A DNA stretch of 64,000 bases from an uncultured Microcaldota archaeon (GCA_903851445.1 CAINOH010000009.1:325784-389783), one strand, 5' to 3'. Shown: positions 7,052 to 30,557, numbered from the stretch's first letter. The notes: a model not told the origin generated them from the letters alone. Numbers and translations are program-made.

Positions 7052-7116
7052 CCGCCCGCAGTTTCACCGCCCTTTCGCCTTGCAGGTTAAAAAAACTCAG
7101 TCTGCAAAGGATTAGC

Positions 7117-11596: not shown

Positions 11597-12106
11597 ATGG
11601 CCTCTTCACTGCTTGAAAGCTTCCAGTCCTTCCGTACCATCCTCTGCGTCTGCCCCTGCTGCGGCCAAATCCGCCGCCTCAGCGACCTTAAGCTCCGCTA
11701 TGCCGGCAAGGCGCCATCGACTTGGCTTGACAAGCTGGACGAGAAGTCCTTGGCTTTGGACGATAAAGAGGCGCTTTTTGAGGAGAAAGAGGCGAAAATG
11801 CGCGAGGCGGCCGCAGAGCGCGGCCGAAAGAAAGTCGACGTCATACTCCGCAAATGCATGGCCAAGGACCTCGCCTGCCTCAAGTTCAACCCCTATGACA
11901 TCAAGACCATAATGCACCCCGTTGACTACGTCGTCTTCGACGGCCTCAACGATGGCGAGATGAACAAGATTGTCTTCCTCTCGAAGTCGTCCGCGTCGCC
12001 CCCGCTTGTCACCCTGCGGAATCAGATACAAAAATCAATCGAGAACAAGGCGTACGATTGGAAAGTGGCACGGGTGGACATTACTGGAAAAATCAGCTAC
12101 GAGTAG
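11597..12106 (+). CDS. Paralogue of the preceding endonuclease, catalytic motif lost
   Basis: This 169-residue protein aligns with its neighbour (CPCCG, charged helix, HPVDYVVFDGLNDG, KIVFLSKSS). The E-x-K of the neighbour (FMEIKTG) is replaced by FLSKSS, so the metal-binding Glu and catalytic Lys appear absent. The Asp of VDYVVF is kept. It may be a structural or DNA-binding partner in a heterodimer. The ATG follows the upstream TAG directly. Confidence 0.7.
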   Translation: MASSLLESFQSFRTILCVCPCCGQIRRLSDLKLRYAGKAPSTWLDKLDEKSLALDDKEALFEEKEAKMREAAAERGRKKVDVILRKCMAKDLACLKFNPYDIKTIMHPVDYVVFDGLNDGEMNKIVFLSKSSASPPLVTLRNQIQKSIENKAYDWKVARVDITGKISYE

Positions 12107-12168
12107 GTCCCTCGAAATTCGTGCATTGATTTTTATTCTAAGGTGAATTCATAGTCATAGGTGGGTTA

Positions 12169-14149: not shown

Positions 14150-16023
14150 TGAGTTGCATGGCAGATATTTTGTTAAGCTATACCGTTCCACACTTAGAGG
14201 CATATTTCGAAGTTGATAATAAAAATTTCAGAGAATATTTGATGCTTGGGTTCGGATTTAGAAGAAAAGATGAACACACATTAATAAAAAAATATGAGGA
14301 TTATACGTTGTTGGGCAACAACTTACATGAAATGAATGAAGAAGCCAAAAAAAATAATATTACTCTCGAACTTGATCCGTATCTCACAAGCTTAATAAAA
14401 ACTGTTGAATGTGACGTATCTTCATTAGAACAAAGTAGGCATAATGGATTGAATACACAGCGTAATCAATACTCAAAAATTGACTTGCCAGATAATTTTT
14501 ATCGTAAACCAAAAAGTTTTCAGCTTCGATCTATTGCTCATGTTCTTTCTGTTCAAAATTCTGCAAATTTTTCAGTTCCTGGAAGCGGAAAAACGACTAT
14601 TAGTTTAGCTGCGTATTCTATTTTGAAAGAAAAAAAAGTAATAGAGAAACTTTTAGTGGTTGGTCCATTGAGTTCTTTCTTAGCATGGGAAGAAGAATTT
14701 GAACAATGTTTTCAGAGGCGGCCAAAAAGTGCAAGAATCACTGGAGAAAAAAATCAAAGGCATGTGCAGTATCAAAACAGCGATGACTACGAAATGTTTT
14801 TAGTTACTTATCATATGCTAAAATTTGAACAAAAAAATATTGAAGCGTTGTTACAAAAACACAATTTTATGATGATTCTTGACGAATCGCATCACATAAA
14901 GAATTTTTATGGTGGTATACACTCGTCAATAGCGCTAGGCTTAGGTAAACACGCAAGAAAGAAATTAATTTTATCGGGTACTCCGGTCCCAAATAGCTTA
15001 GAAGACCTTTGGAGTCAGTTCACATTTCTTTGGCCTAGAGAAGATTTACTTGGAACTAAATTAGCGTATAAGGAAAGTATCAATAGAGACTGGAAGGCAA
15101 CAAAGAAGCGAATCGAGCCATTTTTTGTCAGAATTACTAAAGACGAACTAAAAATTCCAAAACCAAAAATTGAAAGAGTCCACGTCAAACTAGCGCCAGA
15201 ACACTACGATTTTTACTATGAATTATCGCGCACTTTTATAACAAAATCAAAACAATATTGCGGCGCAAGAGAAAATGAATTTTATCGGGTTTGTATGGCC
15301 TGGCTCCTGCAAGCTATCGACGATCCAAATCGTTTAATGATGAAACAAAATACATTTATGAGATTAAACAAAAACAAAGAATTAATGAAAATGTTGTTTA
15401 AATATAGAAAAAACGCCCGCCCCCAAAAAATCATGAATTCTTATGAAACCGTAAGAAAACTTATATCCGCAAATAAAAAAGTGCTCTATTGGACATATTT
15501 TGTCAATAATATAGAAGGCCTTGCGGCAAATGAATTCAAAAAATTTAGACCGCTGGTAGTTTATGGCGAAATCCCAAAAGACGATAGTGTTGATGAGGAC
15601 AACAGAGAAAAACGTATAAGATTATTCAAGGCCGATCCAAAAAGGAAACTCTTAATTGCAAATCCGGCTGCATGTGCCGAATCTATTTCATTACATAGCG
15701 TTTGTAGTGATGCCATTTATCTAGATAGAACCTTAAATTGCGCGCAATATCTGCAATCTCTCGATAGGATACATAGAATAGGTATTACTACAAATCCGCA
15801 TATCCGGTTATATATTGCATCTAAAACATTTGATGTTAGAGTTGATGAAAGACTTAAAGAAAAAGAGCAGCTTATGTTAAAAATTCTCGATGATCCTTTT
15901 GAGCCGATAAATTTGGAAACATCTGAAAATGATTATTACGGTGCGATTAACCTAAGAATGGAAAGAGAAGCTGCAGTTGATAACGAGTTAATAAAGGAGG
16001 AGCTTATCGGGGCGAAAAAGTAA
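14149..16023 (+). CDS. SNF2-type DEAD/DEAH helicase
   Basis: The 624-residue protein has Walker A VPGSGKTT near residue 143, DESHH near 243, LSGTPVPNSLEDLW near 276 and a C-terminal helicase half ending in LDRIHRIG (about 543). These are the SNF2 superfamily 2 motifs. SVPGSGKT replaces the usual DEMGLGKT of chromatin remodellers, a variant I associate with restriction-type helicases. ATG 14149 overlaps the upstream stop (TGATG). It probably translocates on DNA for the nuclease encoded next. Confidence 0.88.
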   Translation: MSCMADILLSYTVPHLEAYFEVDNKNFREYLMLGFGFRRKDEHTLIKKYEDYTLLGNNLHEMNEEAKKNNITLELDPYLTSLIKTVECDVSSLEQSRHNGLNTQRNQYSKIDLPDNFYRKPKSFQLRSIAHVLSVQNSANFSVPGSGKTTISLAAYSILKEKKVIEKLLVVGPLSSFLAWEEEFEQCFQRRPKSARITGEKNQRHVQYQNSDDYEMFLVTYHMLKFEQKNIEALLQKHNFMMILDESHHIKNFYGGIHSSIALGLGKHARKKLILSGTPVPNSLEDLWSQFTFLWPREDLLGTKLAYKESINRDWKATKKRIEPFFVRITKDELKIPKPKIERVHVKLAPEHYDFYYELSRTFITKSKQYCGARENEFYRVCMAWLLQAIDDPNRLMMKQNTFMRLNKNKELMKMLFKYRKNARPQKIMNSYETVRKLISANKKVLYWTYFVNNIEGLAANEFKKFRPLVVYGEIPKDDSVDEDNREKRIRLFKADPKRKLLIANPAACAESISLHSVCSDAIYLDRTLNCAQYLQSLDRIHRIGITTNPHIRLYIASKTFDVRVDERLKEKEQLMLKILDDPFEPINLETSENDYYGAINLRMEREAAVDNELIKEELIGAKK

Positions 16024-16883
16024 TGTTAGTAACCACCCAGCTAAAACATATTTTGGTTATATTGTCTTCTTATGGAAAATCAGATGCTAAGCGAATATCT
16101 TACCTTCTTGATTTTACGCCGGTTAAGGCCGAAAGAGCAAGCTCAATGTGTAATGACTTGTTATGCCTTGCTCTGAAATTAAGAATAATAACTAAAAGTG
16201 GATCGCTCTTTTTTCCGTCATTTAAAATAGAAAATAATAATTCTTCGTCATTTAGTGATTCTGAGAAGCAGTTGCTAATTAAACAAATACTACAGTCAGA
16301 CATACTTACAGAATTAGCTCAAAAAAAGACAAAAGAAGGCACATTTTTATATGAAAATAATAATTTGGTTCACCGGTTACTTTTTGAACTGGGCCTGATA
16401 TACAAGATAAAAAAAAATTATTATGCTGGTCCCAGACTAGATAAAGAAATCAAAAACAGAGAAATAAAAATAGTGTATAACGATGACGAACACGATGAAA
16501 TTGGAAAATATGCTGAAAAAATAATTTACCAACAGGAATATCAAAAACTCTCCGAGTATGAAAAATATATATCAAAGCTGGATCACGTGTCCCTGACAAA
16601 TGATGCAGCGGGTTATGATATACTCTCTTTTGATCCAATAGGAAAAAAACAGGTGTTTATAGAGGTCAAAGGCACAAAAATGAAAAAAGCCGATTTTTTC
16701 TTGACACTAAACGAATTTGAAACATTACAAAGAAAAAAAAAGCAATACAAAATCATGGTGGTTTATGGAATTGATATAGAAAATAATACTCATGACGGAG
16801 TTGAAACTATTATCAATCCGTATATTTATCTACCAAAAAAATATGATATCCGATCTGTACTATACCGAGTTAGTAAAAAATAA
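16023..16883 (+). CDS. DUF3883-type nuclease-fold protein
   Basis: The 286-residue product has a helical N-terminal half and a C-terminal domain with GYDILSF (about 196) and VFIEVKGTK (about 212), the D and E-x-K of a PD-(D/E)XK nuclease of DUF3883 (NOV C-terminal) type. It starts on the ATG that overlaps the helicase stop (TAATG). As the last gene of the cassette it is the likely restriction nuclease. A displaced lhr 3' end follows 29 bp downstream. Confidence 0.8.
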   Translation: MLVTTQLKHILVILSSYGKSDAKRISYLLDFTPVKAERASSMCNDLLCLALKLRIITKSGSLFFPSFKIENNNSSSFSDSEKQLLIKQILQSDILTELAQKKTKEGTFLYENNNLVHRLLFELGLIYKIKKNYYAGPRLDKEIKNREIKIVYNDDEHDEIGKYAEKIIYQQEYQKLSEYEKYISKLDHVSLTNDAAGYDILSFDPIGKKQVFIEVKGTKMKKADFFLTLNEFETLQRKKKQYKIMVVYGIDIENNTHDGVETIINPYIYLPKKYDIRSVLYRVSKK

Positions 16884-16912
16884 CGTCAGTTGAACAAAAT
16901 TGATTGGACTCG

Positions 16913-17008
16913 TTATCTTTTCCAGAAAGATTTCGTCCTTATGAACGTCTTCTGCGCCACCAGCAAGTCATAAAAGAAGTCGTGCTCGTTCTTGTGCATC
17001 CGCGAAAG
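16913..17008 (-). pseudogene. Displaced 3' end of the lhr helicase gene, copy A
   Basis: Read on the minus strand this stretch encodes the last 29 residues of the Lhr-like protein (RMHKNEHDFF ... FWKR) and a stop. The 13 nucleotide differences from 27507-27596 in these codons and the stop are all silent. Further upstream similarity falls away. It is a former functional gene end, now separated from the gene body by about 10.5 kb. Confidence 0.88.
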
Positions 17009-17064
17009 AATGATACAACCAGCCTTAAATAGAGACAGAATTAGGCTATTAGTGTGGTAGTCTT

Positions 17065-17409
17065 ATGCCCATTGATAAAGTCGTTTATGAAAAACTGAAG
17101 GAAGTGGCAAGAGAACAGACCGTTATACCTTATTCTCAATTGAACATTGTCTGCAGGCTTAAACTTGACCTAAGCAAAATAAAGGACAGAAACGAACTTG
17201 CCCGCATTTTAGGCGAAATATCCGAATTTGAGGTATTACACGGGCGACCCATGCTTTCTGCCGTCGTTGTCTTGAAAGACCAGCGTCCCATTACGCCCGC
17301 ATACGGCTTCTTTACTTATGCTGACGAGCTTGGAGTCAGAAAGAAGGGCGAGTCAGATACAGCACTTTTTGCAAGACAGCTCCAAGAATGCTTTACCAAA
17401 TGGAAATAG
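17065..17409 (+). CDS. Hypothetical protein, module A
   Basis: The 114-residue protein has an N-terminal helical part (LKEVAREQTVIPYSQLN) and a C-terminal LSAVVVLKDQRPITPAYGFFTYADELG. The pattern is one I have seen in uncharacterised proteins of mobile DNA, but I cannot name the family. It is the first of three same-strand genes between two displaced lhr ends. Confidence 0.65.
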   Translation: MPIDKVVYEKLKEVAREQTVIPYSQLNIVCRLKLDLSKIKDRNELARILGEISEFEVLHGRPMLSAVVVLKDQRPITPAYGFFTYADELGVRKKGESDTALFARQLQECFTKWK

Positions 17410-17467
17410 AAACTTTTTAGCAAAACCTAAATGAACGATGATTTGGACGTTGGTTAGGTGAAGAATT

Positions 17468-18001
17468 ATGGCAATAGAACAACCACCATACACACTCCGC
17501 TTTTTCAAGCAATACTACTTCAAGCTGGCGAACGAACTTGGAAGCGCACGCATGACTTTGCTTTACAAGCTTGCCATCAATTCCCGCGACACGATGGTTT
17601 CAATGTCCAACAGCATAGACGAGTTCGTAGAACGCTCAGTGTTTCCAAAAGAGGCACACGCATTTGGTAGAGAAGCAGAAGAAGCCAAGCTAAGCTTCAT
17701 TCGCAGCTTATTGGCTGGCTGCAGTCTGGACTATTGCGAATACTCGGCGAACAATCTCAAGCTCGAACCGCTTGCAGAATTCAAATACAAACCTCCAAAA
17801 AGAATTGCACTTTTCCTGTCACAGAAAACCTACGGAGACCTCAAACACGCAATAGAACGATACGAAGAACTAAACAAGAAATATAGCTACGATGCTGCAT
17901 TTTCAACCCACAAATATGACGCCAACGATTACATCCTCTACGGAGATCCGACACCAAACTATCTCGCAGGCTCGAACGAGGATATGACTTGCGAAAAGTG
18001 A
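17468..18001 (+). CDS. Hypothetical helical protein, module A
   Basis: The 177-residue product is mostly helical with several conserved-looking Lys/Tyr segments and a cysteine pair near residue 92. It starts after AGGTGAAGAATT. No family is recognised. It lies between the 17065 gene and the predicted nuclease at 18112, so it is likely part of the same unit. Confidence 0.6.
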   Translation: MAIEQPPYTLRFFKQYYFKLANELGSARMTLLYKLAINSRDTMVSMSNSIDEFVERSVFPKEAHAFGREAEEAKLSFIRSLLAGCSLDYCEYSANNLKLEPLAEFKYKPPKRIALFLSQKTYGDLKHAIERYEELNKKYSYDAAFSTHKYDANDYILYGDPTPNYLAGSNEDMTCEK

Positions 18002-18111
18002 GCAAAAAAAGATCACGCTCCCGGCTCACTCAAGGGGGAAATATGCGGGTGACTGCGGCTTCGACGGCACCTGCAAAATATCAATCGGCAAGAGCAAAGA
18101 GATGAAAGAAA

Positions 18112-18897
18112 ATGGAAAATATCATCCAAAAAATCCGTCAACTTAATTCCGCACGCGCCGGCTCGCTTGCAGAACTAGCTTTTGCGTTAACCGCCGCACG
18201 AGATGTGGGTGGAGAAATCAAGCTCGGAAAATTGAAGATACAGCACGCGGACCAAACGGACTTCGTCACCGTCAGCGGACGAAGAATAGACGTAAAAAGC
18301 AGGAGATTCCGCGCAAACGAACCGCTTCCCCCACTCCGCGCGTATCAGGGTCCCCGGGTAAAAGAGATAGAATACGGCGTAGTAGAATTCTATGATAACG
18401 GCGCCCGCATATCTCTAGAAGGACAGCTACTGGCAGAAATAGATGAAAACAAGCTAGAAACAATCTGGCGCGAGTGGCTCAAAGGACGCGCCCAAGAGAT
18501 TCCGTCAGCCGAAAAACCAGCCAGCGAAGAAGCTGCGCTAGAAATCTCCAGTGAAGTAAAATCCTTTTTTACAGCCAAAGGCTTTGCTCCCCGCGTGATA
18601 TACCGCACCTGCGAACCTAGCTTCGGCAAGGAAAGCCCCGGCAACCTGAAGCCTACAAAGCTAGTGCCAAAAGGCATCTCGATCTACCTTTCATTCTATC
18701 CGGGCAACGTAAACCGAGACAATCTATACCGTCTCATCGCGTTCCCTGACAACCAGGCAAGCAAGCTCCCCATGCACGCAAAAACACACCTTCACCTTCC
18801 CAAAGTCAACCTTGAAGAAGTTGACCCGAAATACAAGTTCAAAAACATAAACGACCTCCTAGAAAATTACTTCAAGAGGTTTCCAAAAAGCGATTAA
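18112..18897 (+). CDS. Predicted PD-(D/E)XK nuclease, module A
   Basis: The N-terminal 70 residues contain GSLAELAFALTAAR, a D-rich turn, and GRRIDVKSRRF. The E...D-x-K order resembles archaeal Holliday-junction-resolvase-like and type II restriction folds. The remaining 190 residues are unassigned and include a YLSFYPGNVNRDNLYRL segment. It is the third gene of its module. The nuclease call rests on one motif region. Confidence 0.6.
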   Translation: MENIIQKIRQLNSARAGSLAELAFALTAARDVGGEIKLGKLKIQHADQTDFVTVSGRRIDVKSRRFRANEPLPPLRAYQGPRVKEIEYGVVEFYDNGARISLEGQLLAEIDENKLETIWREWLKGRAQEIPSAEKPASEEAALEISSEVKSFFTAKGFAPRVIYRTCEPSFGKESPGNLKPTKLVPKGISIYLSFYPGNVNRDNLYRLIAFPDNQASKLPMHAKTHLHLPKVNLEEVDPKYKFKNINDLLENYFKRFPKSD

Positions 18898-18920
18898 ACA
18901 AGGAAAAGGCGATTCATTAG

Positions 18921-18944
18921 TCATATTTTCCAAAAGTTTTTCGT
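18921..18944 (-). pseudogene. Degenerate lhr 3'-end remnant, copy B
   Basis: On the minus strand this reads TKNFWKI plus stop, against TKSFWKR plus stop in Lhr, in the same register. About 21 of 26 nucleotides match copy C. It lies between module A and the HNH gene at 19012. Confidence 0.6.
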
Positions 18945-19011
18945 CCAAATTGGTAACCCTTTAAATCTACCTTCCACCTATTTCTTCCTATGAACACGGA
19001 GTTAGGCTGCA

Positions 19012-20070
19012 ATGAATATGCGTAGTCTGATTCTAGTGTTGTTTATGCTGCCAATGTTAGCTTCTGCGTTGACTTGTCAGTATAATGAAAAAACACTGAT
19101 TTCTGAAGAAACCGCGATGGCGCCGTTTTATTTGAACGGCACGCAGCTCGAATTTTTGATTGTAAAATTTGAAGACCTTCCTACTACTCCCATATTACTC
19201 CAGAATCCAAATTCCGTTCCGATTAATATCATTTTTTCAGTAAGCGTAGCAACTCCCGACTTCAATTGCCCTGATTATGGATTGCAAACATACAACCTTA
19301 CAATTCCTGCATCGGGAGAATACGAAGTAAAATGGCAGTTTAGCAAATGGCCAAACGAATTCTACTGTAAAAACCTGCATTTCACATCGCCATATAAAAT
19401 TACATATTATTCGAGTGACCGCGTAGAAGTCAAACTTACCACGATTAGAAATTACTCTGAAAAATGTCTGGGATTCGACGATGACGCAATCTGCCAAACC
19501 AACGATCAGTGCGGCAGCAAGCTCTGTCTGCAAAGCAAATGCGCGAACCAAACAGCTGTTTTAGAGTACAACAAACAGCAAGAGTATCCAGGAATGACAC
19601 TCTTAGGTGTAATTGTCCTTTTCATAATACTCGGATTAGGTCTACGCCTAACTAGATGGGTAAAACGCCAGGTTAAAACAAAAAAAGAACAACGAAAACC
19701 ACACGATGGTTCAATTGATGAAAATACTTTCGAACTTATAAATGAGAGAGAAAAACGTACGAAAGAAATTGATAGTGCCTTACTGACTCCGCATTATGAT
19801 CCACAAGCAAATGGCCGCCAAGTAGTAATTAGTCCAATCAACGGGTACAAGTATTTTTACAACAAAAATAAACCAAACGCGCCTATAGACGAGCCGGACA
19901 GAAACCTAGTCCATGTATGGGTTTGGGAGAAGGCAAATAAGAAGAAGAAAAGATACGGCTACGAAATTCACCATAAAGATTTTAACAAACTTAACAACGC
20001 ACCCGAAAATCTGGAAGAATTGTCACCCGAAGAACACAAAAAACGGCATCACGATCGCTACATTCACTAG
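19012..20070 (+). CDS. Membrane protein with cytoplasmic HNH nuclease domain
   Basis: The 352-residue protein has a signal peptide (MRSLILVLFMLPMLASALTC), an external domain with several cysteines (about 20-185), one membrane helix (about 195-218), and a cytoplasmic C-terminus. The C-terminus holds YGYEIHHKDFNKLNNAPENL and EEHKKRHH, an HNH nuclease core. The topology would place the nuclease inside the cell under an extracytoplasmic sensor-like domain. It is the only gene between remnants B and C, which suggests a one-gene defence cargo. Confidence 0.8.
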   Translation: MNMRSLILVLFMLPMLASALTCQYNEKTLISEETAMAPFYLNGTQLEFLIVKFEDLPTTPILLQNPNSVPINIIFSVSVATPDFNCPDYGLQTYNLTIPASGEYEVKWQFSKWPNEFYCKNLHFTSPYKITYYSSDRVEVKLTTIRNYSEKCLGFDDDAICQTNDQCGSKLCLQSKCANQTAVLEYNKQQEYPGMTLLGVIVLFIILGLGLRLTRWVKRQVKTKKEQRKPHDGSIDENTFELINEREKRTKEIDSALLTPHYDPQANGRQVVISPINGYKYFYNKNKPNAPIDEPDRNLVHVWVWEKANKKKKRYGYEIHHKDFNKLNNAPENLEELSPEEHKKRHHDRYIH

Positions 20071-20085
20071 TGAATTTTGAATTCG

Positions 20086-20124
20086 TTATCTCTTCCAAAA
20101 ACTTTTCGTCCTTATGAACGTCTT
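20086..20124 (-). pseudogene. Displaced lhr 3' end, copy C
   Basis: This encodes KTFIRTKSFWKR plus stop on the minus strand, identical to the Lhr C-terminus with only synonymous base changes. Similarity stops sharply beyond 12 codons, so the shared core here is about 39 bp. Confidence 0.85.
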
Positions 20125-20154
20125 CTATGTCACTCGGGCGAATTTACGGTAACG

Positions 20155-20168
20155 TGTAGTGCCTAACT
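20155..20168 (-). repeat. AGTTAGGCACTACA repeat, distant copy
   Basis: The 14-mer occurs here on the minus strand and twice in tandem at 32535-32548 and 32558-32571. It lies about 30 nt from lhr remnant C. Its function is unknown. Confidence 0.4.
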
Positions 20169-20290
20169 GTTATTCTATCTTCTCTGTAAAAATCATTTTC
20201 TGGAAAAGGTTGACTGAGAAACCGGTTGAGTACTCAAAGAAGGGGCAAAACGCCACCTTAGGTTAGCCTTTTGTTCTAACGTTCGTACGG

Positions 20291-20926
20291 TTATTTCTTA
20301 TGGTGGTCAGAGTCATATATTTTTTTGAAAACTTCACAAATTAATACGCCTGCTGCATCCCAAGCTAATACGAATATTATTAATTTCGCAAACGCACTCC
20401 AAAGCTCTAGCTCTGTAAAAATATTTGGGGATTGAATAAATGCAGTCTGACCTTTATGTACGGTGAGGTTTCCCGCAAAATATATTTTTGCAGAAAAATT
20501 TTCTCCTATATGAATCGAGGTACATACTGGATTTTCTGGCTGTCTAATAATGAAACTCTGATTTCCTGACATATCAACATGTAAAGCAAAAAGTTGATTG
20601 CTTTCCTTAGGCGGATTAAAAATACTCATGTCTTCGAAACAAAGACGATACCAGTTAAAACCTGGTGGAGAGTTAAAAACATCTCGAAGAAGTGCGAACG
20701 GCCCAGGTTGATCTTGACTAGGATTTTCACTAACAAATATAGTTGTATTCGCGCCGGCTTGATAAGTTTCTTTGTATAAGGGGTATTGCACTTGAGGTTC
20801 CCAAAGAAAAAGATATATACCAAGAATAATTGGAGCGAATAGAAGTAGGACGACAGCAACAAAGTTTATTCTTTTTATAAAAGACAAGTTTTTGATTAAA
20901 TCGTCAATCCTGTCGTCATGTGCCAT
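20291..20926 (-). CDS. Two-helix membrane protein, module C
   Basis: The 211-residue protein has a hydrophobic helix near residues 20-43 and a second near 178-198, with an extracytoplasmic domain between that contains several N-glycosylation-type sequons (NTT, NQS, NFS, NLT). It is divergent from the next membrane-protein gene. No family is recognised. Confidence 0.65.
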   Translation of the reverse strand: MAHDDRIDDLIKNLSFIKRINFVAVVLLLFAPIILGIYLFLWEPQVQYPLYKETYQAGANTTIFVSENPSQDQPGPFALLRDVFNSPPGFNWYRLCFEDMSIFNPPKESNQLFALHVDMSGNQSFIIRQPENPVCTSIHIGENFSAKIYFAGNLTVHKGQTAFIQSPNIFTELELWSAFAKLIIFVLAWDAAGVLICEVFKKIYDSDHHKK

Positions 20927-20972
20927 GCAAGAAGTTCATTTTAAGAGTTAAAAAAAGGGTCAGAAGCAGGCT

Positions 20973-21431
20973 ATGCCTAGCCTTTTGAGAGCAAACTGTA
21001 TCGGTGGCAGTATATGTTTTTTGGATCACGTGTTATCTATGGGAGATACGTTTTTTGGAAGCAAGGCGCGCTTTACTCCGTTCTTGGCTGCCTTTTACTG
21101 CGGTTTGTGCTTTGCAATCTTAATCACTACTCAACAGGATATTACCCGCGCAGGCATTCAGGAAACCGTCGCCATCGAAATAGTAAACGCAATCGCGCCG
21201 CCGTTTGTTGTAAGCATTGTATCTATTCTTGAGTGGCTGTCATTCTTCGCCGCTATCTGGTATACCTTCGCAAATCTTGCTGATCAGTGGTATGAACACA
21301 AACTATGGCCGTTCTTTGGGTTCGTGGCCGGCTTCTCAGTCCTGGTCGTTCCATCCGACTATTATTATATGATACTGCTCGGGCTGGGCCTGCTCTGGTT
21401 GTGTCGAATAAAGTTTTGCGATTTGGACTGA
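20973..21431 (+). CDS. Multi-pass membrane protein, module C
   Basis: The 152-residue product has about three hydrophobic helices (FLAAFYCGLCFAILI, VVSIVSILEWLSFFAAIW, MILLGLGLLWLC). A TATA-like GTTAAAAAAAGG lies about 25 nt before ATG 20973. An internal ATG at 21039 is an alternative start. It precedes the DUF559-like nuclease gene. Confidence 0.6.
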   Translation: MPSLLRANCIGGSICFLDHVLSMGDTFFGSKARFTPFLAAFYCGLCFAILITTQQDITRAGIQETVAIEIVNAIAPPFVVSIVSILEWLSFFAAIWYTFANLADQWYEHKLWPFFGFVAGFSVLVVPSDYYYMILLGLGLLWLCRIKFCDLD

Positions 21432-21472
21432 CTCAAGTTAGCCTTTAATGAACATGACCTTGTGATTATCAT

Positions 21473-22000
21473 ATGTCAAAGGAAGCAGAGCAATCCAAGT
21501 ATTCTTGTGCACATTGCGGAAAGCCCGTTGATGATGAACTAGCAGAGATTGCTATTGATTGTCATGAAAAAACTCTTTGCTTTAAACATCAGAAAGAAGC
21601 TTCAGATGAACGTGAAAAAAGAGCTCCGAAACCGGTAATTATGAAGTGTGAAAATACACTTCGAAACGAATTGATGCAGCAAAAGCCGGATCTATATCTT
21701 CTGCAACAAAAATGGGATGGCTACAAGCACATAGACTTGACCCTGCCGCACTATATGCTGAATATCGAAGTAGATGGGCCATACCACAAAAGAAAGTACA
21801 AGCCACATCACAAAGAGCCGTATGAGGTTATGTTAACGGACTTTATACGCGACTATTATTCTTTCAGGAGAGGATGGGTGACCATCAGAGTATCAAATGA
21901 ACTTGTAGAAAATAAGCTTGAGAAGACCGCACACTATATTTTGAGATTCGCCGAAGCACGGAGAAAGCAACTACAGAAAATTACTCCTTCTATGGAGTAA
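21473..22000 (+). CDS. Zinc-finger plus DUF559/Vsr-like nuclease, module C
   Basis: The first 40 residues carry CAHCG and a CHEKTLCFKH pair, a treble-clef-like zinc site. Residues about 65-160 have an acidic HIDLTLPHYMLNIEVDGPYH stretch followed by a basic helix and RRGWVTIRVSNEL, the DUF559/Vsr nuclease pattern (D...E-x-D). A GTGATT ribosome-binding site precedes the ATG. It is likely the effector of the module. Confidence 0.72.
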   Translation: MSKEAEQSKYSCAHCGKPVDDELAEIAIDCHEKTLCFKHQKEASDEREKRAPKPVIMKCENTLRNELMQQKPDLYLLQQKWDGYKHIDLTLPHYMLNIEVDGPYHKRKYKPHHKEPYEVMLTDFIRDYYSFRRGWVTIRVSNELVENKLEKTAHYILRFAEARRKQLQKITPSME

Positions 22001-22325
22001 TAAGGGCGTGGCTGTTCACCAGAAGTCTCATCTCAGGATAGACTTTTATAGCCCTGGTGGAGATAGAAGACCATGTCACACAACATTGCCGGCTGTGAAC
22101 CGCTTCCCTTAAGCTCGGGATCAAGGTACCTTTTCGAGCTTATGGTGGCAGGAACGCAGCCGCCTGCAATTTGACCTGAACATATTCGTTGGTCGCGAGC
22201 ATTACTGTAAAGTAATGCGTACTTCGCTTTCCAGAAAGGGTAGTCCTTAAGTCGGTATAGTGCCCTGAGGAGGGGTAAAATACCTTGTTAGGCAGCTTTT
22301 TCCCTCTTTCCAGCCAGATTAATAC
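22001..22325. other. Non-coding stretch of 325 bp
   Basis: No convincing ORF is present. A TATA-like element (about 22046) is followed by GC-richer sequence that could be a small RNA, without support. At 22227-22256 TTTCCAGAAAG and GTCCTTA recall the lhr 3' end with a gap, which may be a decayed remnant between modules C and D. Confidence 0.4.
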
Positions 22326-24089
22326 ATGGCAATCAGTCAGAACATAAAGTCAGTTTTGGCACAGCTGGACGCCCTGGCATACGAGGACGAATACGCCTAC
22401 GATAAAAATGAGATAATCGGTAAGGCGGTGCACATGGCTGCAGAAACAAAGGACGTCGAAGATGAAAAGCAGCTCAGAGATGAATGGATGCTTTTGAATA
22501 GTCCTCTTACGCCTCCAGGTCAAATCGGAAACATCTGGGAGCATATTCTAAGCCAGGAGAATACTTCCCTGAATGCACGACAGCCTTTCTGGAATTATGA
22601 CGCTGCTACTGTTGATTACTTCAAGAACCGCTTAAGCGATTCCTTACCGCCCATTACTGCAGGAAGAATTTGTTTCTATCTCTGGACGGCGACGCGAGAA
22701 ATTGATTATGCGGTCAAAGCCATTGAATATTTCTTTAAAGCATTTGAGATGCATGCGTTCAGCACGGAGTTTGATCATGGCAACACGTGTCAATTATGTT
22801 GCCGGTTTGCATTTCGTCTACTTCTGTCTTTGAACTATTTTGAACCATTGCAAAAGACGTATTTGCCCCGAGCTTTTGCCATATTCGATTCTTTGTCTGA
22901 CAAAAAAGAATTTGGAAGCAGGCATTTCGAACTCGCAAAGATACTGTTGCCGGCCTATGTGACGGTTTGGTCAAGTTTATCTGATCCAGAAAAGGCCAAT
23001 GCTCAAAAAATCATAGAATACTATTGGAGTAAAGCAAATGTTCTTTGCAAGCAAGGCACATTTCACTTCGCTGTGGACATCATGTCTATGATTGAGCTGT
23101 TTGCCAAGGCCACCAAAGACAACAATCTCTTATCTCGTGCCCAGACCTTTCATCTCAACGCAATTATCACTGAAGGTGATCAGTTCCCGGCGGCAATGCT
23201 GAAGGCGGATTGGTACAAATCTGCAGTGAGTTACATGCAGGCAAACAACATCACTGATAAAATACTTCTTGCTGACTTGATGAAAAAAATAGAAAAATTC
23301 AGTTCAGAGTCCTTGAAGGACTTCAAAGTGGTTAGTGTTGAATCAACAATGCCTACTGCTGCGTTTGATGCGGCAGCCGAGTCGGTTTGCCAAGATTCAT
23401 TAGGTATAGACAGACTAGAGCGGCTCGCGCAGTTTGTACTGCCTCCTTTAGAAGAAATAAAAAAACTCGCATCGGCCAAAGACGGAACTCTGATGAGTAT
23501 TCTTCCCATTACTATTCAAAGGGACGGATATATCTCGAAGGCAATAACCGATCCTGAAGAACGTGCCAAGTTAGAGCTGGTCCATGCAACGATAAATAGT
23601 CTGCAGTTCAGTTCCTCTCTGATTAGACACGCATTAGAAAAGTACGCAATACCGCTTTCAGATTTTTTGTCGGCTATTCAATCGGCAGAGGTAACCGAAG
23701 GCTCAAAAACAATACTGACGCATGGCTTAGGTGAGCACTTTGAAGCAGATTATATCTCATCCTGTCATGTGCTAGTTCCTCAGATTGAGTCGTTAATTCG
23801 CCAAGAGGCTAAACGAAGAGGCAAGACATCCATAGTATATGATACAAAGAACAGAGCAATTGTATTGCAGACGCTTAGTTATCTTGCTGGAAACGAAGAA
23901 GTAACGGAAATCTATGGAGAACCTTTCTGCAATGTCCTCCGGGCATACTATACTGACATGAACGGTAACAACTTGCGGAATGAAATAGCACATGGATTTG
24001 TCGACATAGAGACTCTCAATAGGAGTAATTCAATTATTACCGTGTTTCTCCTGGTGTACATGCTATCTGTAACAAAGATTTCTGTCTAG
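22326..24089 (+). CDS. DUF4209-like protein with C-terminal HEPN-type RNxxxH motif
   Basis: The 587-residue protein is helical throughout. Near residue 550 it has LRNEIAHG, the R-x4-H motif of HEPN ribonucleases as found in DUF4209 proteins, preceded by a long alpha-repeat-like region. HEPN RNases commonly act as abortive-infection effectors. It is convergent with the small membrane protein at 24142. The family name is from pattern memory. Confidence 0.65.
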   Translation: MAISQNIKSVLAQLDALAYEDEYAYDKNEIIGKAVHMAAETKDVEDEKQLRDEWMLLNSPLTPPGQIGNIWEHILSQENTSLNARQPFWNYDAATVDYFKNRLSDSLPPITAGRICFYLWTATREIDYAVKAIEYFFKAFEMHAFSTEFDHGNTCQLCCRFAFRLLLSLNYFEPLQKTYLPRAFAIFDSLSDKKEFGSRHFELAKILLPAYVTVWSSLSDPEKANAQKIIEYYWSKANVLCKQGTFHFAVDIMSMIELFAKATKDNNLLSRAQTFHLNAIITEGDQFPAAMLKADWYKSAVSYMQANNITDKILLADLMKKIEKFSSESLKDFKVVSVESTMPTAAFDAAAESVCQDSLGIDRLERLAQFVLPPLEEIKKLASAKDGTLMSILPITIQRDGYISKAITDPEERAKLELVHATINSLQFSSSLIRHALEKYAIPLSDFLSAIQSAEVTEGSKTILTHGLGEHFEADYISSCHVLVPQIESLIRQEAKRRGKTSIVYDTKNRAIVLQTLSYLAGNEEVTEIYGEPFCNVLRAYYTDMNGNNLRNEIAHGFVDIETLNRSNSIITVFLLVYMLSVTKISV

Positions 24090-24141
24090 ATGTGCGCCTC
24101 TCTTTCCATACGCAGTGGTCTATTTCGTAGGGTTTGCAACT

Positions 24142-24519
24142 CTATTCTTTTTTCAAGTGTTTGGGATGTGGAAATTTCCGGAGATCTTCTACGACTTTCG
24201 ACGTGACGTCTATAGTTGATTTCATACTGCCTATTTTTTGAGTATATTTTTTCCAGAAATATATTAGGCCCATTACTGTCAGTAGAGCAAAAACCCCATT
24301 TATTGGAATCGTCCATTCAAAAAATGGAAACGAAACACCTCGGGAAAATTCGAAAAGAGATTGAGCAGCAAAGCCTCCAAAGATACCGAGAAGCACTCCA
24401 TCAACGAACAAATAATGTTGTTCAATTTGATCAAACATTTTTCGTCTTTCTTTACTAAGGTATTCTGCTAGAAACGCTCGGTTTTCCGAGGTGAGTGATT
24501 GATTAAGCGGATCTTCCAT
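24142..24519 (-). CDS. Small two-helix membrane protein
   Basis: The 125-residue product has a helical N-terminus, two membrane helices (about 42-60 and 72-88) and a charged tail ending in KHLKKE. The layout resembles small membrane partners or effectors in defence modules, but no family is recognised. Confidence 0.6.
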   Translation of the reverse strand: MEDPLNQSLTSENRAFLAEYLSKERRKMFDQIEQHYLFVDGVLLGIFGGFAAQSLFEFSRGVSFPFFEWTIPINGVFALLTVMGLIYFWKKYTQKIGSMKSTIDVTSKVVEDLRKFPHPKHLKKE

Positions 24520-24776
24520 ACGACTCCCCCACTGCCTTAGATGATATTATGAGAGTCTATTTATGAGGTTTTAAGACTTCTTGTTCGTGCACTTCAAAAC
24601 AACCACCGCTCTTCAGATGACGTCCCATATGGATGACCCTGCACGACTTGCAAATCCGGCGCTGATCATTTCGGAGCCGACTCCCTATGCTGGCCTTCAC
24701 AGGAAATCTCGTTTAGCCAACCTTAAATATCCCTCTCGGACCACATTATTATTGGCAGTTTTTCTGGACGATTTTC

Positions 24777-25601
24777 ATGGAACGCAAGGCGTCACCGATA
24801 GTAAAATGGGCTGGGGGCAAGAGGCAGTTGCTAGACGAGCTTCTTGCGCGCGTTCCCGCCAAGTTCAACGCATACCACGAGTTTTTCCTCGGAGGCGGCG
24901 CGCTGTTTTTCGAGCTTTACAACACCGGCAGGATAGACCGCGCGGTTCTTTCGGACATCAATCCTCGCCTAATCAATCTTTACAAAGTCGTTCAGAACCA
25001 GCCTTATGAGCTTATTGAGGAATTGAAGGACAAGACGTACGCGAACAACGAGCGTGCTTTCTACAACATCCGCAAGAGCGAGCCTTCTGACGAAGTAGAG
25101 ATGGCTGCTCGATTCGTTTATCTGAACAAGACCGCTTTCAATGGCCTTTACCGCGAGAATTCTTCAGGTAAGTTCAATGTTCCTTTCGGCCGGTACAAGA
25201 ACCCGCGGATTCTGGACGAGGAGGGCATCCTAGCTGCGTCGGAAGCGTTTTCGAAGGCAACGCTTCTTTGCGGGGATTTTTCAAAAGTAGAGGATTACGC
25301 CAACACCGGTGACTTCGCGTATTTCGATCCGCCGTATTATCCTCTGGATAACACTGCCAGCTTTACTGCGTACAATTCAAGGTCTTTCAGCGGTTTCGAC
25401 CAGAAAAGACTAAAAAAAACATTCGACGTCTTGACCAACAGGGGCGTAAACATTCTACTTTCCAATTCGCACACGAATTTCATAACCGATCTCTTTTCCG
25501 ATAGGGACATTGCTTCCGTCATGGCGAACCGCATGATAAACTGCAAGGCAAACGGCCGCGGTCCAATCCGCGAGGTCATGATTACCAGCGGATACGCCTA
25601 A
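24777..25601 (+). CDS. Dam-family N6-adenine DNA methyltransferase (D12 class)
   Basis: The product shows the alpha-class order: PIVKWAGGKRQLL (motif X/I region), FFLGGGALFFEL (motif I), SDINPRLINLY, and FAYFDPPYYPL (motif IV DPPY) near residue 182. Length (274) is usual for Dam/MjaIII/DpnM-type enzymes, which often modify GATC, though specificity cannot be read from sequence. A zinc-ribbon ORF follows 5 nt later, and an opposite-strand unknown gene may be its restriction partner. A TATA-like CCTTAAATAT lies near 24722. Confidence 0.93.
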   Translation: MERKASPIVKWAGGKRQLLDELLARVPAKFNAYHEFFLGGGALFFELYNTGRIDRAVLSDINPRLINLYKVVQNQPYELIEELKDKTYANNERAFYNIRKSEPSDEVEMAARFVYLNKTAFNGLYRENSSGKFNVPFGRYKNPRILDEEGILAASEAFSKATLLCGDFSKVEDYANTGDFAYFDPPYYPLDNTASFTAYNSRSFSGFDQKRLKKTFDVLTNRGVNILLSNSHTNFITDLFSDRDIASVMANRMINCKANGRGPIREVMITSGYA

Positions 25602-25605
25602 TTCG

Positions 25606-25800
25606 GTGTTCTTTATTCCAGAATCAACCGTGTACTGCCCATTCTGCCAAAAATTCGGCGTAAAAGTATTCGAAATTCCCCAATACAAAGCACGCGACCA
25701 CGCAAGCCAGTATTCAAGCAAACGAGGAGGCGGGGTTACCGTCCTGTCCGCCTGCCCGTCCTGCGGGAAAGCAGCTTCGGAAATACAGAAAGAACTCTGA
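25606..25800 (+). CDS. Small zinc-ribbon protein
   Basis: The 64-residue protein has CPFC and CPSC knuckles spaced as in a zinc ribbon. It directly follows the Dam-type gene. Start near 25606 is GTG or further in. The role is unknown; it may assist DNA binding. Confidence 0.5.
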   Translation: MFFIPESTVYCPFCQKFGVKVFEIPQYKARDHASQYSSKRGGGVTVLSACPSCGKAASEIQKEL

Positions 25801-25801
25801 G

Positions 25802-26413
25802 CTATTTTCCGAGGTACCAAAGCTTGTCGCGATTTTTTTCGTAGTGCCGGCACTTCTTGTTTTCCAAGTTGGTGTACCTGCTTGCCGGAGGCTGGCCGTT
25901 GGAGACGCTCATGCACAAGTTGTCTATTTCCTTAGGACTGTCCAGGAACTCCCTTATCCAACCTTGATAGAACAATGTCGGCGGCTCGAACTTGCTTTCC
26001 CTGTGATAGCCATATGCCTGTTCGATTATGAAAAGTTGGGCCAGAACCGCTATTGTTTTCAGCGAGTTGAGGTAAAGCGGGAACTTTTCCTTTCGAAGCT
26101 TGGATATTGCCTTTTCCGGCGATTCACCGTAAAAAATGTCGTCAAATGCGAGAAGAAGGGCTTCCTTCAGGTCCGGCCTTGAGCGAATCCGCAGGTTCAG
26201 GTCAAGAAAGACCCGTAGGTGGTTCGGCCGGAACTTGCGCTCGCCGTCCTTGAGCCAAATCTGGAAGTTCTTCTTCTTGTCGTAAGTCTTGAACCTGCTT
26301 GAAAGCACCGACGGCCTCAGGATATAGACTTCGACGCCGCCCGTAACGTCAACCGTTGTTTCCTTGTCAAACGGCAACTTCTTAACTCGCTTGAACATTT
26401 CAGCATATTTCAT
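25802..26413 (-). CDS. Hypothetical protein beside the Dam-type methylase
   Basis: The 203-residue, basic protein is convergent with the zinc-ribbon gene. A central acidic region (ALLLAFDDIFYGESPEKAI) and FQIWLKDGERKF are visible. I do not recognise it. Position suggests a restriction endonuclease partner of the methylase, which is only inference. Confidence 0.55.
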   Translation of the reverse strand: MKYAEMFKRVKKLPFDKETTVDVTGGVEVYILRPSVLSSRFKTYDKKKNFQIWLKDGERKFRPNHLRVFLDLNLRIRSRPDLKEALLLAFDDIFYGESPEKAISKLRKEKFPLYLNSLKTIAVLAQLFIIEQAYGYHRESKFEPPTLFYQGWIREFLDSPKEIDNLCMSVSNGQPPASRYTNLENKKCRHYEKNRDKLWYLGK

Positions 26414-26540
26414 AAAATACTACTCGCAAGAGCCCGATTTAAGGGTATGGTGTCCTCGCTTCAACTTATGTTTTTCTTTACCCTTCATTCAATTTTTTGA
26501 TAAGTTGCCACTGGCTACTTATGTATTTTTTCATTTTCGC

Positions 26541-26573
26541 CTATCTTTTTCAGAACGGTTTCATCTTGATAAC
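26541..26573 (-). pseudogene. Degenerate lhr 3'-end remnant, copy E
   Basis: About 24 of 31 nucleotides match copy A in the same orientation, and an in-register TAG stands where the lhr stop should be. It separates the HEPN-like gene at 26599 from the methylase module. Confidence 0.55.
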
Positions 26574-26598
26574 TCCTTTCTGCAGGTTTAGTGAAAGA

Positions 26599-27465
26599 TT
26601 AATCTTGCAAGAAAATTTCTAAGTCCTTCATGGATTTTTCTAACGCATCGCATATTTCGTTGTGCATTTTTACAATTCCGTTAGTCTCTGTGTAATCTTT
26701 TGGTTCTATTTTACCACCCGGATAACGCGTATACGCAAAATGTGGATAGGTTATAACTGAAAGAATAAAGATGCATAAAAACGAGCTGATGTTGGAAAGG
26801 GTTTGTTCAACTTTTTGACTAATTTTTTGATTATTGTATTGCTTTGTATACTTTCTGGGAAGTTGCGACAAAAATTCGAGTACTTTTTTAATTGCTTCTT
26901 GTTTTTTTTCGTCCAATTTTATTCCTATTTTTTTGTTTAATTCAAGGAGTTGTTTTATCTCATCACCACTCATTTTTGCTATTTTGGCTGGTTTATTTTC
27001 AATTAATTTTTCAAAGGTTTTCACATCAGGGTCGATATTACTTTCCAATGCGAAGGATTTCATCAGCTGTGTAAAAGATACTGATATTTTTTTCTTGAGC
27101 AATCGGACAAATATCCTTGGTGCGACATGTGATATGCCTTTTTTTCCACCTAGTTCGTTTATTTTAACTATATTCATTGCTAGACCATAGGCTTTTGCGG
27201 TTTTCTCAACGGATTGTTCTAAATGGTATATTGAATTAGGTTTGTCCGTTGAGAAAAGAAGTTTTGACGCGGTTAAATCTCTTTTTGCACATTCTAACAA
27301 TTCTAAACCAAATTCTTTAGTTGTTTGATTTGCTGGTCCATTGTCAGTCAAGAATTGCATATATTCTGAAAGCATGGATAGTTGCTCTGCTGAAAGCTTC
27401 CCAATCCCAGGAATTTCAATCTGCGTCAAATCAATATCGATTTTTTCTTGCTCCATAAAAGTCAT
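26599..27465 (-). CDS. HEPN-domain protein (AbiV-like)
   Basis: The 288-residue protein contains AKRDLTASKLLF and YHLEQSVEKTAKAYGL around residues 53-90, the HEPN two-helix pattern seen in AbiV and nucleotidyltransferase partners. No clear R-x4-6-H catalytic motif is seen. The gene is AT-rich and is the only gene between remnant E and the intact lhr 3' end. Start is ATG 27465, or 27456. Confidence 0.65.
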   Translation of the reverse strand: MTFMEQEKIDIDLTQIEIPGIGKLSAEQLSMLSEYMQFLTDNGPANQTTKEFGLELLECAKRDLTASKLLFSTDKPNSIYHLEQSVEKTAKAYGLAMNIVKINELGGKKGISHVAPRIFVRLLKKKISVSFTQLMKSFALESNIDPDVKTFEKLIENKPAKIAKMSGDEIKQLLELNKKIGIKLDEKKQEAIKKVLEFLSQLPRKYTKQYNNQKISQKVEQTLSNISSFLCIFILSVITYPHFAYTRYPGGKIEPKDYTETNGIVKMHNEICDALEKSMKDLEIFLQD

Positions 27466-27506
27466 CGTGCATTTACTGGTATTATACTAGTGTTACTTCT
27501 CCGAAA

Positions 27507-30500
27507 TCATCTCTTCCAGAAGCTCTTTGTCCTTATGAATGTTTTCTGCGCCACCAACAAGTCGTAAAAGAAGTCGTGCTCGTTCTTATGCATCCTCGCC
27601 AACAGACGGGCGGCCGTCTCCGGTCCGATGCCAAAAACCTCTAAGGCAATCACTGCTCGCATCCCATACGTGGCAATCAGCCCGGCAACCGCGTACATGT
27701 CGGCCTCGCGCTTCTTTTTCCCCGCGCCAGTCGAGCTAACCGCACCACCCGCAGCGCCAAAATACCCCCCATGTGCGGCGGCTACTTCGTTAGGTTGAGT
27801 TGACGCCGCCGAAGAAGACAGGGCAGGCTTGGAGAACAAGGCTGGCTTGCGCTTGCCTCTTTTCTTTGCCCTTGTTTCCTTGATGTTCGAAAGGATTTCC
27901 TTGCGCTCGGACTCCTTCAGGTTATCCTCGTAATTGTCAGTCGTGACTTGAGTAGATGCGCAGAATGGGCAGGAAATCTTCCCGTTCCAGTCGTCCGAGA
28001 GGGAAACGGAGAAAGATTTATGGCAAAAAGTGCAGACAAGACGGGAAGTCTTTTCCTTGGTTGATGCGACGAACTGCTCCAAGGAGTCCTCGCTGGGTTC
28101 AATCTCAGAGGCGGAAACGTCGTGGGAGAATGCAGAGTCAAGCATCGCCTTGGAAAGTGCCGAGGCAGCGGAAGGAGAGACGACCACTACTCGTGTTCTG
28201 GAGCCGACTCGTAGGGTGGAGTATAGCGCCTTCAGGCGAGGCAAGTCAAACTTGTCCTTCAAAATCTCGTCCATTGCCTCCAGGAACACGGGCGAGGACT
28301 GGTATCTCTCAACAAGCCTGCGCAAAGCATAAGGGTTGCGGAACGGTGTTGCCTTACGAGGAAGAACGCCAAAGCGTTGTGCGACGTGGAAGAACCTGGC
28401 ACGCAAGAGGGGAGTGGAGGAGACGCTTTTCTCAACAGCATAGGCAAAAGCCTCCGGCGAGAGCGCCGAAATCAACGCAGCGAGCTTGGAAGCGTCGTAG
28501 GGCTGTTCAAAGTCAAGCAGGATCCCGTAAGTGCCGGGCCGGGTCCGCACGCGGTTCTTGTCTTGGGAGAGTAAGTTGGAAAGGCAGATTGCGAAGGCCT
28601 CGTTGAACGCGTCGCCAAGGAAGCAATGGACTGCAATGCGCTGGAAAGGCAGGTTTTCGACAAAAATCTCAGCAGGCGTTGCTTGGAATGCCTTTGACTG
28701 GCTTGATGCGAGGCCGTGGATCTTGGCAGCTGCGGTTGAATTGCAGTGGTACTTGGAGGAAATCTCGGCAACGGATAGCCGGGCGCATTCTGCCAGAAGC
28801 TGACAAACCATCGACGAAGTCGATGAGGATACGGGTATTTCCTCGCCCCGCCACTCGGGTATTGCTGCGGTGTAGTCAGTTGACTGTTCGACTGCGACCT
28901 CGTCTTCGGATACCGAGAGCACTTTCCAGGGACGGCCGCGGGAGATGAACGTCGCGCCTATTGCCAGGAACTGGGCTGCGAAGTCCTCGTCCAGCACGCC
29001 CATTGACTTGTTGGTGGAGGCGTTGCGTATGAAGAGGTTCTTTTTGTCCGAGATTGTGGAGACGTTCTCGTAGTAGTACAAAAGCGTGCGGGGCATCCGG
29101 CGCAAGGCCAGGGCCGATAGGTCGGCATCAGTGGCGTCCTCAAGGACGGGCAGGTTTTTGCCAATGCCGAGGTTGAGGATGCGTTTTCGCGACAATTCCA
29201 AGGCTAAGTCGAAGTATTCGCGGCAAGTCACCGAGGCAAAAGCAGGTGCGGTTGAGAGGATGGAGCGCACCTGTCCGAGAGTAGTTTGAGGATGCAGGTC
29301 AAGAACAGCCCCCACTATGGCGTGCGCAAGCACGTCGCGAGCTGGCCTCTGCTCGTGGCGGATTTCCAGCTCGCGGTTATTGGCTTGCAAACACAAAATC
29401 GCGGATTCCGCGCAATCCAGCGCGTCAGCAGAGAGCACGATTCCGGATGGCACCAAGTGAGTCCGGTGGCCGCTCCTGCCTACCCTCTGCAGGAGGCGGG
29501 TTGACTGACGAGGAGAGACGATTTGGATGACCAGGTCCACGTCGCCGATGTCAATTCCAAGCTCCAGCGAGGAGGTGCAGACAATTGCCCGGAGGCCTTC
29601 GGGGTGCTTGAATGCCTCTTCGGTCTCTTTCCTCGCTGTCGTGGACAGCGAACCGTGATGCACGGCAACCAGGTCAGTCAAGTCTGGCTGTTGGTGTAGT
29701 TGCGAGCCCAGCCACTCGGCATTCGAGCGCGTGTTGGAAAAAATGAGCGTCTTCTTGTGGGAAAGCACCAAGTCGCGGATACGGGCAATCAATGGGCTGG
29801 ATTTTGAGGAATCGGAAGCAGAGACGGCTTTTGCTGCTGGCAAGAGGGCATTTGTTGCATCCGGGATTTGGGTTTTCGGCTTCTCGATGCATTCAACTGA
29901 AAGCTTGTATTCTCGTTTTTCGTCAAGGACCGAAGCAACGGCGTTGGTGGAAAGCGTCTTGGCGGCCTTTTCAGGTTCGGCAATCGTTGCGGAGAGGCCG
30001 ATTAGTTGGATTGGTTGGAGGGCTTTCTTGCGCAAGCGGGCAATCGAGAGGCTCAACTGTATGCCCCTTTTTCCCTCTAAAAGCTCATGGTACTCGTCGA
30101 TGATAACAAAGCGAGTCGAGGAGAGCGCAGGCGAGAGTTTTTGGTGAACTAGCACCGAGCAGAGCGTCTCCGGAGTGGTAATCAAAAACTGGGGTGGATT
30201 GTCAGCCTGTTTTTGCCTCTCAGACTGGGGCGTGTCTCCGTGCCTTACTGCGAGGCGGATTCCAAGCTCGGAGCACCATTTTTCAAGACGCAAAAGGATG
30301 TCGCGATTAAGCGCGCGCAGGGGTGTTACGTAGATGGCCAGTATCCCCCAATCGTTTCCCGCTCGCTTCAAGCGAGCGAGCTCGGAGAACACCGGCATAA
30401 TCGCAGCTTCCGTCTTGCCGTAGCCAGTAGGCGCAACAACCAGCACGTCCTTGCCGGAAAGAATCTTGGGAATGGCAAGAGTCTGGATGCTCGTAAGCGT

Positions 30501-30557
30501 AGTGATGCCGAATTTTTTAGCAGTCGAAATGACTTGCGGGTCGAGCGTGGAGTCCAT
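27507..30557 (-). CDS. lhr: Lhr-like superfamily 2 helicase
   Basis: The 1016-residue protein has Walker A APTGYGKT (42-49), DEYH (154-157), a SATI motif (about 185) and the helicase C domain with SLELGIDIGDVDLV and QRVGRSGH. A zinc site (CTFCH and CPFC, about 840-865) and a helix-hairpin-helix-like GIGPETAARLLARM near the C-terminus follow. Lhr helicases unwind DNA and DNA:RNA hybrids in repair. The final 12-29 codons are copied in remnants at 16.9 and 20.1 kb, so its 3' end appears to be an insertion site. Confidence 0.92.
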   Translation of the reverse strand: MDSTLDPQVISTAKKFGITTLTSIQTLAIPKILSGKDVLVVAPTGYGKTEAAIMPVFSELARLKRAGNDWGILAIYVTPLRALNRDILLRLEKWCSELGIRLAVRHGDTPQSERQKQADNPPQFLITTPETLCSVLVHQKLSPALSSTRFVIIDEYHELLEGKRGIQLSLSIARLRKKALQPIQLIGLSATIAEPEKAAKTLSTNAVASVLDEKREYKLSVECIEKPKTQIPDATNALLPAAKAVSASDSSKSSPLIARIRDLVLSHKKTLIFSNTRSNAEWLGSQLHQQPDLTDLVAVHHGSLSTTARKETEEAFKHPEGLRAIVCTSSLELGIDIGDVDLVIQIVSPRQSTRLLQRVGRSGHRTHLVPSGIVLSADALDCAESAILCLQANNRELEIRHEQRPARDVLAHAIVGAVLDLHPQTTLGQVRSILSTAPAFASVTCREYFDLALELSRKRILNLGIGKNLPVLEDATDADLSALALRRMPRTLLYYYENVSTISDKKNLFIRNASTNKSMGVLDEDFAAQFLAIGATFISRGRPWKVLSVSEDEVAVEQSTDYTAAIPEWRGEEIPVSSSTSSMVCQLLAECARLSVAEISSKYHCNSTAAAKIHGLASSQSKAFQATPAEIFVENLPFQRIAVHCFLGDAFNEAFAICLSNLLSQDKNRVRTRPGTYGILLDFEQPYDASKLAALISALSPEAFAYAVEKSVSSTPLLRARFFHVAQRFGVLPRKATPFRNPYALRRLVERYQSSPVFLEAMDEILKDKFDLPRLKALYSTLRVGSRTRVVVVSPSAASALSKAMLDSAFSHDVSASEIEPSEDSLEQFVASTKEKTSRLVCTFCHKSFSVSLSDDWNGKISCPFCASTQVTTDNYEDNLKESERKEILSNIKETRAKKRGKRKPALFSKPALSSSAASTQPNEVAAAHGGYFGAAGGAVSSTGAGKKKREADMYAVAGLIATYGMRAVIALEVFGIGPETAARLLARMHKNEHDFFYDLLVAQKTFIRTKSFWKR

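Follow-up and report, generated by a model that had tools for sequence, protein, structure and literature searches.

Downstream of the gene for an Lhr-type helicase in an uncultured archaeon we found displaced copies of the gene's own 3' end, separated by small modules whose genes differ from one interval to the next. The reading that we favour, and to which we give about an even chance, is that this region arose by accretion of small recombinase-less elements at the lhr 3' end via reciprocal recombination. The window analysed here is a stretch of 64,000 nucleotides (C9:325784-389783) from C9, a complete contig of 452 kb in a 1.09 Mb draft genome (25 contigs, 81% complete) that is the sole member of its family in the collection compared. 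On our own reading, its ORFs presumably include an archaeal-type proline-tRNA ligase, ribosomal proteins and an oligosaccharyltransferase-like protein, a set that suggests an archaeal host whose genome is small.

The intact lhr gene occupies 27507-30557 on the minus strand and encodes a 1016-residue protein with the Pfam domains DEAD, Helicase_C, DEAD_assoc and WH_Lhr; a reading made from the sequence alone had placed its end at 27507, as we did. The duplicated segment is the conserved Lhr C-terminal tail, AQKTFIRTKSFWKR, with the stop codon that follows it. The longest copy, C, which the sequence-only reading had placed at 16913-17008, is real and extends to 17011 on the minus strand, covering the last 32 codons and the stop, with 93.8% amino-acid identity to lhr over those codons (tblastn E = 9e-15). 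Over the last 29 codons and the stop, 13 nucleotides differ and all 13 changes are silent as claimed, a pattern with a chance of about 1e-9 under neutrality; just upstream lie A/S and L/I changes. Copy B (20086-20133, minus strand) had likewise been reported as silent-only, and its 12 codons and stop, ending at 20124, indeed show seven silent differences out of seven, with a weak match continuing to 20133. The third copy, D (18921-18944, minus strand), reads TKNFWKI followed by a stop and has two non-silent changes. It had been listed as degenerate, and the case for it proved stronger than stated: against a PSSM of the last 24 bases of the lhr end it scores 24.9 bits, ranking fourth among the 2.94 million positions scanned across three genomes, with the next best at 17.8 bits. 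As had been noted, lhr, C, D and B all lie on one strand, the copies downstream of the gene, and measured from left edge to stop the remnants C, B and D are of unequal length (about 99, 39-48 and 24 nt). Between lhr and C the longest identical block is 23 bp, and silent divergence is spread across the entire repeat.

Two other proposed copies were rejected as chance-level matches. The site at 26541-26573 has a PSSM score of 16.2, equal to that of unrelated sites in other genomes; its gapped score of 18.5 exceeds those of shuffles, yet a match within a coding gene at 20483 reaches 18.0. The site at 22227-22256, doubtful from the outset, scores 13.5, which is inside the shuffle range. Wide scattering of such sequences would have spoken against insertion scars, and when the entire 1.09 Mb assembly was searched with a degenerate pattern allowing up to three mismatches, lhr, C and B were the only three matches. 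A scan of IMG/VR with the lhr-end DNA gave no match. Codon usage was also considered as a sign of foreign origin of the lhr tail and was set aside as weak, the tail being at the 5th percentile for 12 codons and unremarkable for 30. As copy C contains an in-frame ATG from which a 28-residue Lhr-tail peptide might be made, and its changes are silent, the copies could themselves be functional. We consider this highly improbable, since copies B and D lack a start codon, none of the lhr loci examined elsewhere in the class showed a comparable displaced tail, and the same pattern is seen at proS and vapC (described below).

Each interval between the lhr ends holds different cargo. To the left of C lies a plus-strand defence operon (12169-16883) comprising an N6/N4 methylase (12169-12999), an unknown protein, an SNF2-type helicase (ZorD/DpdE/DrmD-like) and a NOV_C protein. 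The module between C and D (17012-18920, plus strand) consists of three ORFs (17065-17409, 17468-18001 and 18112-18897) without Pfam or PADLOC matches, and the last of them (261 residues) has no detectable relative in 246 genomes of the class, GTDB or IMG/VR. Between D and B (18945-20085, plus strand) is a membrane protein with a C-terminal HNH_3 domain (19012-20070; PF13392, E = 5.8e-10), which has only weak matches within the class. The stretch from B to the intact lhr gene (20134-27506) contains, among others, a DUF559-like gene, a DUF4209 gene (22326-24089; PADLOC PDC-S39), a D12 adenine methylase (24777-25601) and a gene at 26599-27465 that had been called AbiV-like, for which we found nothing beyond a weak HEPN match below the cut-off. 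The modules at lhr measure 1.1-7.4 kb. Stop codons of the plus-strand modules sit 29, 23 and 15 bp before C, D and B, respectively, and the cargo genes at the junctions are whole, without truncation. When the ORFs lying between the repeats were scanned with Pfam, no recombinase or transfer genes were detected, in keeping with the earlier statement that the island lacks a recombinase. Defence genes make up most of the cargo, and this would account for its retention.

This arrangement bears on a further explanation, that the remnants are tandem duplications of lhr and its neighbours that were later deleted down to the gene ends. Such a history would fit the direct orientation of the copies and the decay of copy D. 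We regard it as distinctly unlikely, as the cargo differs in each interval, partial lhr bodies were not found, and the last codons of C and B carry many silent but zero amino-acid changes relative to lhr. This silent-only divergence suggests that they diverged while functional in separate lineages.

The lhr-end copies sit inside a low-GC island rich in defence genes, with 33-49% GC over 12000-27500 and 50-57% in most of the flanks. No tRNA genes were found within the window, nor any Rfam matches in 9000-31000, and the tRNA gene end that marks the boundary of a tRNA-targeted island is therefore missing here. Further left, DprA-like and phosphoribosyltransferase genes (9096-10603) form a ShosTA-like toxin-antitoxin defence pair according to PADLOC, and the genes at 171-2516 and 3943-5502 encode TraG/VirB4-like and HerA-like ATPases, hinting at a conjugation-related element.

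When the 452 kb of C9 were compared with themselves, short direct repeats of more than 80% identity occurred in only three places, lhr, vapC and proS. The intact vapC gene (5859-6257, plus strand; PF01850) encodes a VapC-like PIN toxin and follows VapB (5635-5862; PF02697). Its displaced 3' end, which reads LVSGNAKHFSRVPGLRIEKV and a stop ending at 7565, lies with adjoining flank at 7503-7611 on the plus strand, the flank reaching the end of a convergent MFS gene. The direct repeat (6204-6301 and 7512-7611) is 90% identical, includes an identical block of about 66 bp and encloses a plus-strand insert (6302-7506) with an ORF at 6377-6718, a ParE-like toxin at 6740-7021 (weak match) and an ORF at 7003-7506. 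This scar (5635-7611) is of the same type as those at lhr. Outside the window, the end of proS is repeated 442 bp downstream (C9:420168-422050, L131 11168-13050; repeat at C9:420611 and C9:420168), with a 125-residue ORF in the 0.44 kb between. The displaced proS end reads PAKVTAYFAKSY, with silent changes, a different stop codon and an identical block of 32 bp. In the relative G006, the end of a uS10-like gene is repeated 113 bp downstream (G006:C2:242700-242980; L160 2700-2980), with 18 codons, silent-only changes and an identical block of 42 bp, and the module of 0.1 kb at this site includes a GC-rich insert of about 57 bp between the two ends. A similar GC-rich insert is enclosed in another genome, G012 (L191 15860-16110), by two perfect 34-bp copies of the 5' end of a gene, which are also 113 bp apart.

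A peptide-based scan for displaced gene ends, searching 15 kb in both directions from each gene, covered all of C9 and C23 together with 120 kb of C24. On C9 (452 kb) it found four short displaced ends (lhr twice, proS and vapC), all four downstream of their genes; on the two other contigs (267 kb) it found no short displaced ends, the matches on C23 stemming from a long tandem duplication. Two control genomes (751 kb) yielded one displaced end, the uS10-like case, in 351 kb of G006 and nothing comparable in 400 kb of G056. Nothing comparable was seen in 673 kb of lhr neighbourhoods either. Since displaced ends occur at vapC, proS and uS10 besides lhr, the process appears to act on the ends of several genes; the proposal of serial insertion marked by displaced gene ends is supported, and the idea of lhr as a uniquely targeted gene is not.

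The same distribution bears on the concern that contigs of different strains, each beginning inside a gene end, were joined during assembly. The genome is a draft of limited completeness in 25 contigs and the remnant lengths fall in the range of read overlaps, as such an artefact would predict. We nevertheless think it unlikely, since C9 contains zero Ns, the genes at the junctions are untruncated, three genes are affected on one contig and zero on two others of the same assembly, and the uS10 case comes from an independent genome.

We also compared lhr loci among relatives. Of 246 genomes of the class, 184 contain the Lhr tail, nearly always once, with extra matches in about a dozen, and none of the 39 lhr loci examined in relatives has a displaced end comparable to C, B or D. 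The sequence-only reading had advised a search for empty or differently filled lhr sites. No empty site beside this left flank was found in the collection compared, where this genome is the family's only member, or in scans of GTDB and IMG/VR with lhr, and differently filled sites were found in G003 and G026, two species of genus g4. Their alignment breaks off at the lhr stop codon and resumes at the purH stop codon; in between, G003 has two unidentified genes and G026 has a methylase and a putative endonuclease. The G026 methylase is 60.6% identical to the island methylase at 12169-12999, and the stop of the endonuclease gene lies 18 bp from the lhr stop, compared with 15-29 bp for the modules here. 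No displaced lhr end was seen in G026. From the differing fillings, the related methylase and the similar stop spacing, we therefore infer that defence genes recur at the lhr 3' site across more than one family. A DNA-level core, TTCATAAGGAC, is shared with G026 and absent from its sister G003; it also occurs in a distant genome and was dismissed as not significant. Conserved gene order after lhr had been named as evidence against insertion. Such an order exists in families f3 and f4, which belong to the same order as the present genome, where a ubiquitin-like cluster follows lhr at 0.1-4 kb with variable intervening content; in the present genome a relative of the cluster's E1-like protein sits 180 kb away.

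As to a recombinase, a Pfam-level search found none within the island. The sole tyrosine recombinase found in the 81%-complete assembly is on another contig, C23, one without lhr ends, so the suggested link between a recombinase and lhr-end copies was not borne out, and no serine recombinase was found in the assembly. The lhr neighbourhoods of 60 relatives, a set with no genome of the same family, contained no tyrosine recombinase either. Among 16 recombinase neighbourhoods of relatives, no displaced protein-gene ends were detected; the only repeat was that of a tRNA end in G045 (L195 14585-15484), where the intact tRNA gene and its displaced end are 840 bp apart, an ordinary case of insertion at a tRNA gene. 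In G043 (G043:C1:341001-418977; L185-L189) we observed three identical 26-kb tandem units, each with a tyrosine recombinase gene and with overlaps of 10 bp.

Under our favoured reading, incoming DNA, probably circular, would carry a short copy of the lhr end, and reciprocal (Campbell-type) recombination would take place between the resident gene end and this copy. Each insertion would leave an intact gene with the newcomer's end, followed by the cargo, with the old end shifted outward. The recombination would be site-specific and att-like and not ordinary homologous recombination, with a recombinase that works in trans or was lost. A short repeat with an identical block marking the crossover would be expected, and the identical blocks (23 bp for lhr/C, 32 bp for proS, about 66 bp for vapC and 42 bp for uS10) lie in or near the range of 8-60 bp given for att repeats (PMC5704250). 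No remnant exceeds about 100 nt, although our method would have picked up longer ones. Unchanged codons cluster beyond the expectation for scattered silent divergence (combined P = 9e-5, in tests picked after the data had been seen), a result carried by proS (P = 0.003) and uS10 (P = 0.002). Against this model, the block at lhr taken alone is not significant (P = 0.35), the lhr remnants are unequal in length when one recombinase should cut in one place, and weak similarity to the gene extends upstream beyond the identical block in several repeats. The missing link between a recombinase and lhr, here and in 60 relatives, and the 16 recombinase neighbourhoods without displaced protein-gene ends also count against it.

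The main rival is homology-facilitated illegitimate recombination, which needs no special recombinase and which we hold possible but less probable. DNA from a related cell, carrying an lhr end with its own neighbours, would recombine homologously on one side and be joined illegitimately at its far end, so that the remnants of the resident gene end would vary randomly in length. The varying lengths of the lhr remnants, the several different genes hit, the want of a linked recombinase and the spread of silent divergence over the full lhr/C repeat all fit this route, and this mechanism has been put forward for Vibrio cholerae, where 3' ends of T6SS effector genes are displaced (PMC5361080). It does not readily account for remnants that all stay at or below about 100 nt, for the clustering of unchanged codons at proS and uS10, or for cargo genes that are intact at the junctions.

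The region shares features with several known systems. In integron gene-cassette arrays, each gene is followed within tens of bases by a site in the same orientation, as is the case here; unlike in integrons, the sites are gene ends, no recombinase adjoins them, and the copies lack an attC-type fold (DNA fold z-scores of -0.7, 1.1 and 1.9). A closer parallel is offered by the CIMEs (1.2-13 kb) and microCIMEs (130-220 bp) at the 3' ends of streptococcal protein genes (PMC7563491), which form composite islands as stacks at rpmG, rpsI, fda and rplL (PMC7563491, PMC5704250). Both cases involve stacks of recombinase-less elements of similar sizes at the 3' end of a protein gene with a housekeeping role, with direct repeats that restore the gene end, adaptive cargo, and neither recombinase nor transfer genes inside the element. 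Here, however, the host is an archaeon, the targets are the genes for a helicase and for a proline-tRNA ligase, a partner element with a recombinase was not found, and repeats at one gene differ in length; descent from conjugative elements would be conjecture. Counted from the stop, the left edges at lhr are at about 99, 39-48 and 24 nt and share no common att core position in the target gene, so we do not claim that these elements are CIMEs, only that the arrangement works like one. The earlier remark that elements at gene 3' ends target mostly tRNA genes understates the literature, in which rpsI, rpmG, rplL, fda, guaA and trmE are established targets, including for tandem elements without a recombinase (PMC7563491, PMC5704250).

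Two other precedents are instructive. The ssrA islands of Dehalococcoides are arranged in tandem, each bounded by a displaced ssrA end, and 15 of them have no integration module and were suggested to be cis-mobilizable (PMC3146451). They resemble the present region in the many tandem islands downstream of one gene with displaced 3' ends as borders; they differ in their RNA gene target, a constant 20-bp repeat and sixteen islands with an integration module including a serine recombinase. In the V. cholerae T6SS, effectors are displaced sequentially (PMC5361080), and modules added beside a conserved gene part, with an array of displaced 3' ends and no recombinase, are common to both cases, whereas the cargo there belongs to the effector locus. 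The pattern looks like known gene-end insertion in a new setting, not special to lhr.

Displaced gene ends with silent-only changes would thus be readable scars of the module-by-module growth of a defence island, without a recombinase or tRNA marker. Such scars can be detected simply by searching downstream of each gene for a repeat of its final codons, so that sequence alone suffices to map hidden insertion sites in uncultivated archaea and to put the two competing mechanisms to the test. It is a tentative and rather doubtful extension that the lineage has a gene-end recombination system whose recombinase, acting in trans, adds defence cassettes at the 3' ends of lhr, proS, vapC and uS10. If this were true, insertion sites would be set by gene ends, and many conserved gene ends would be entry points.
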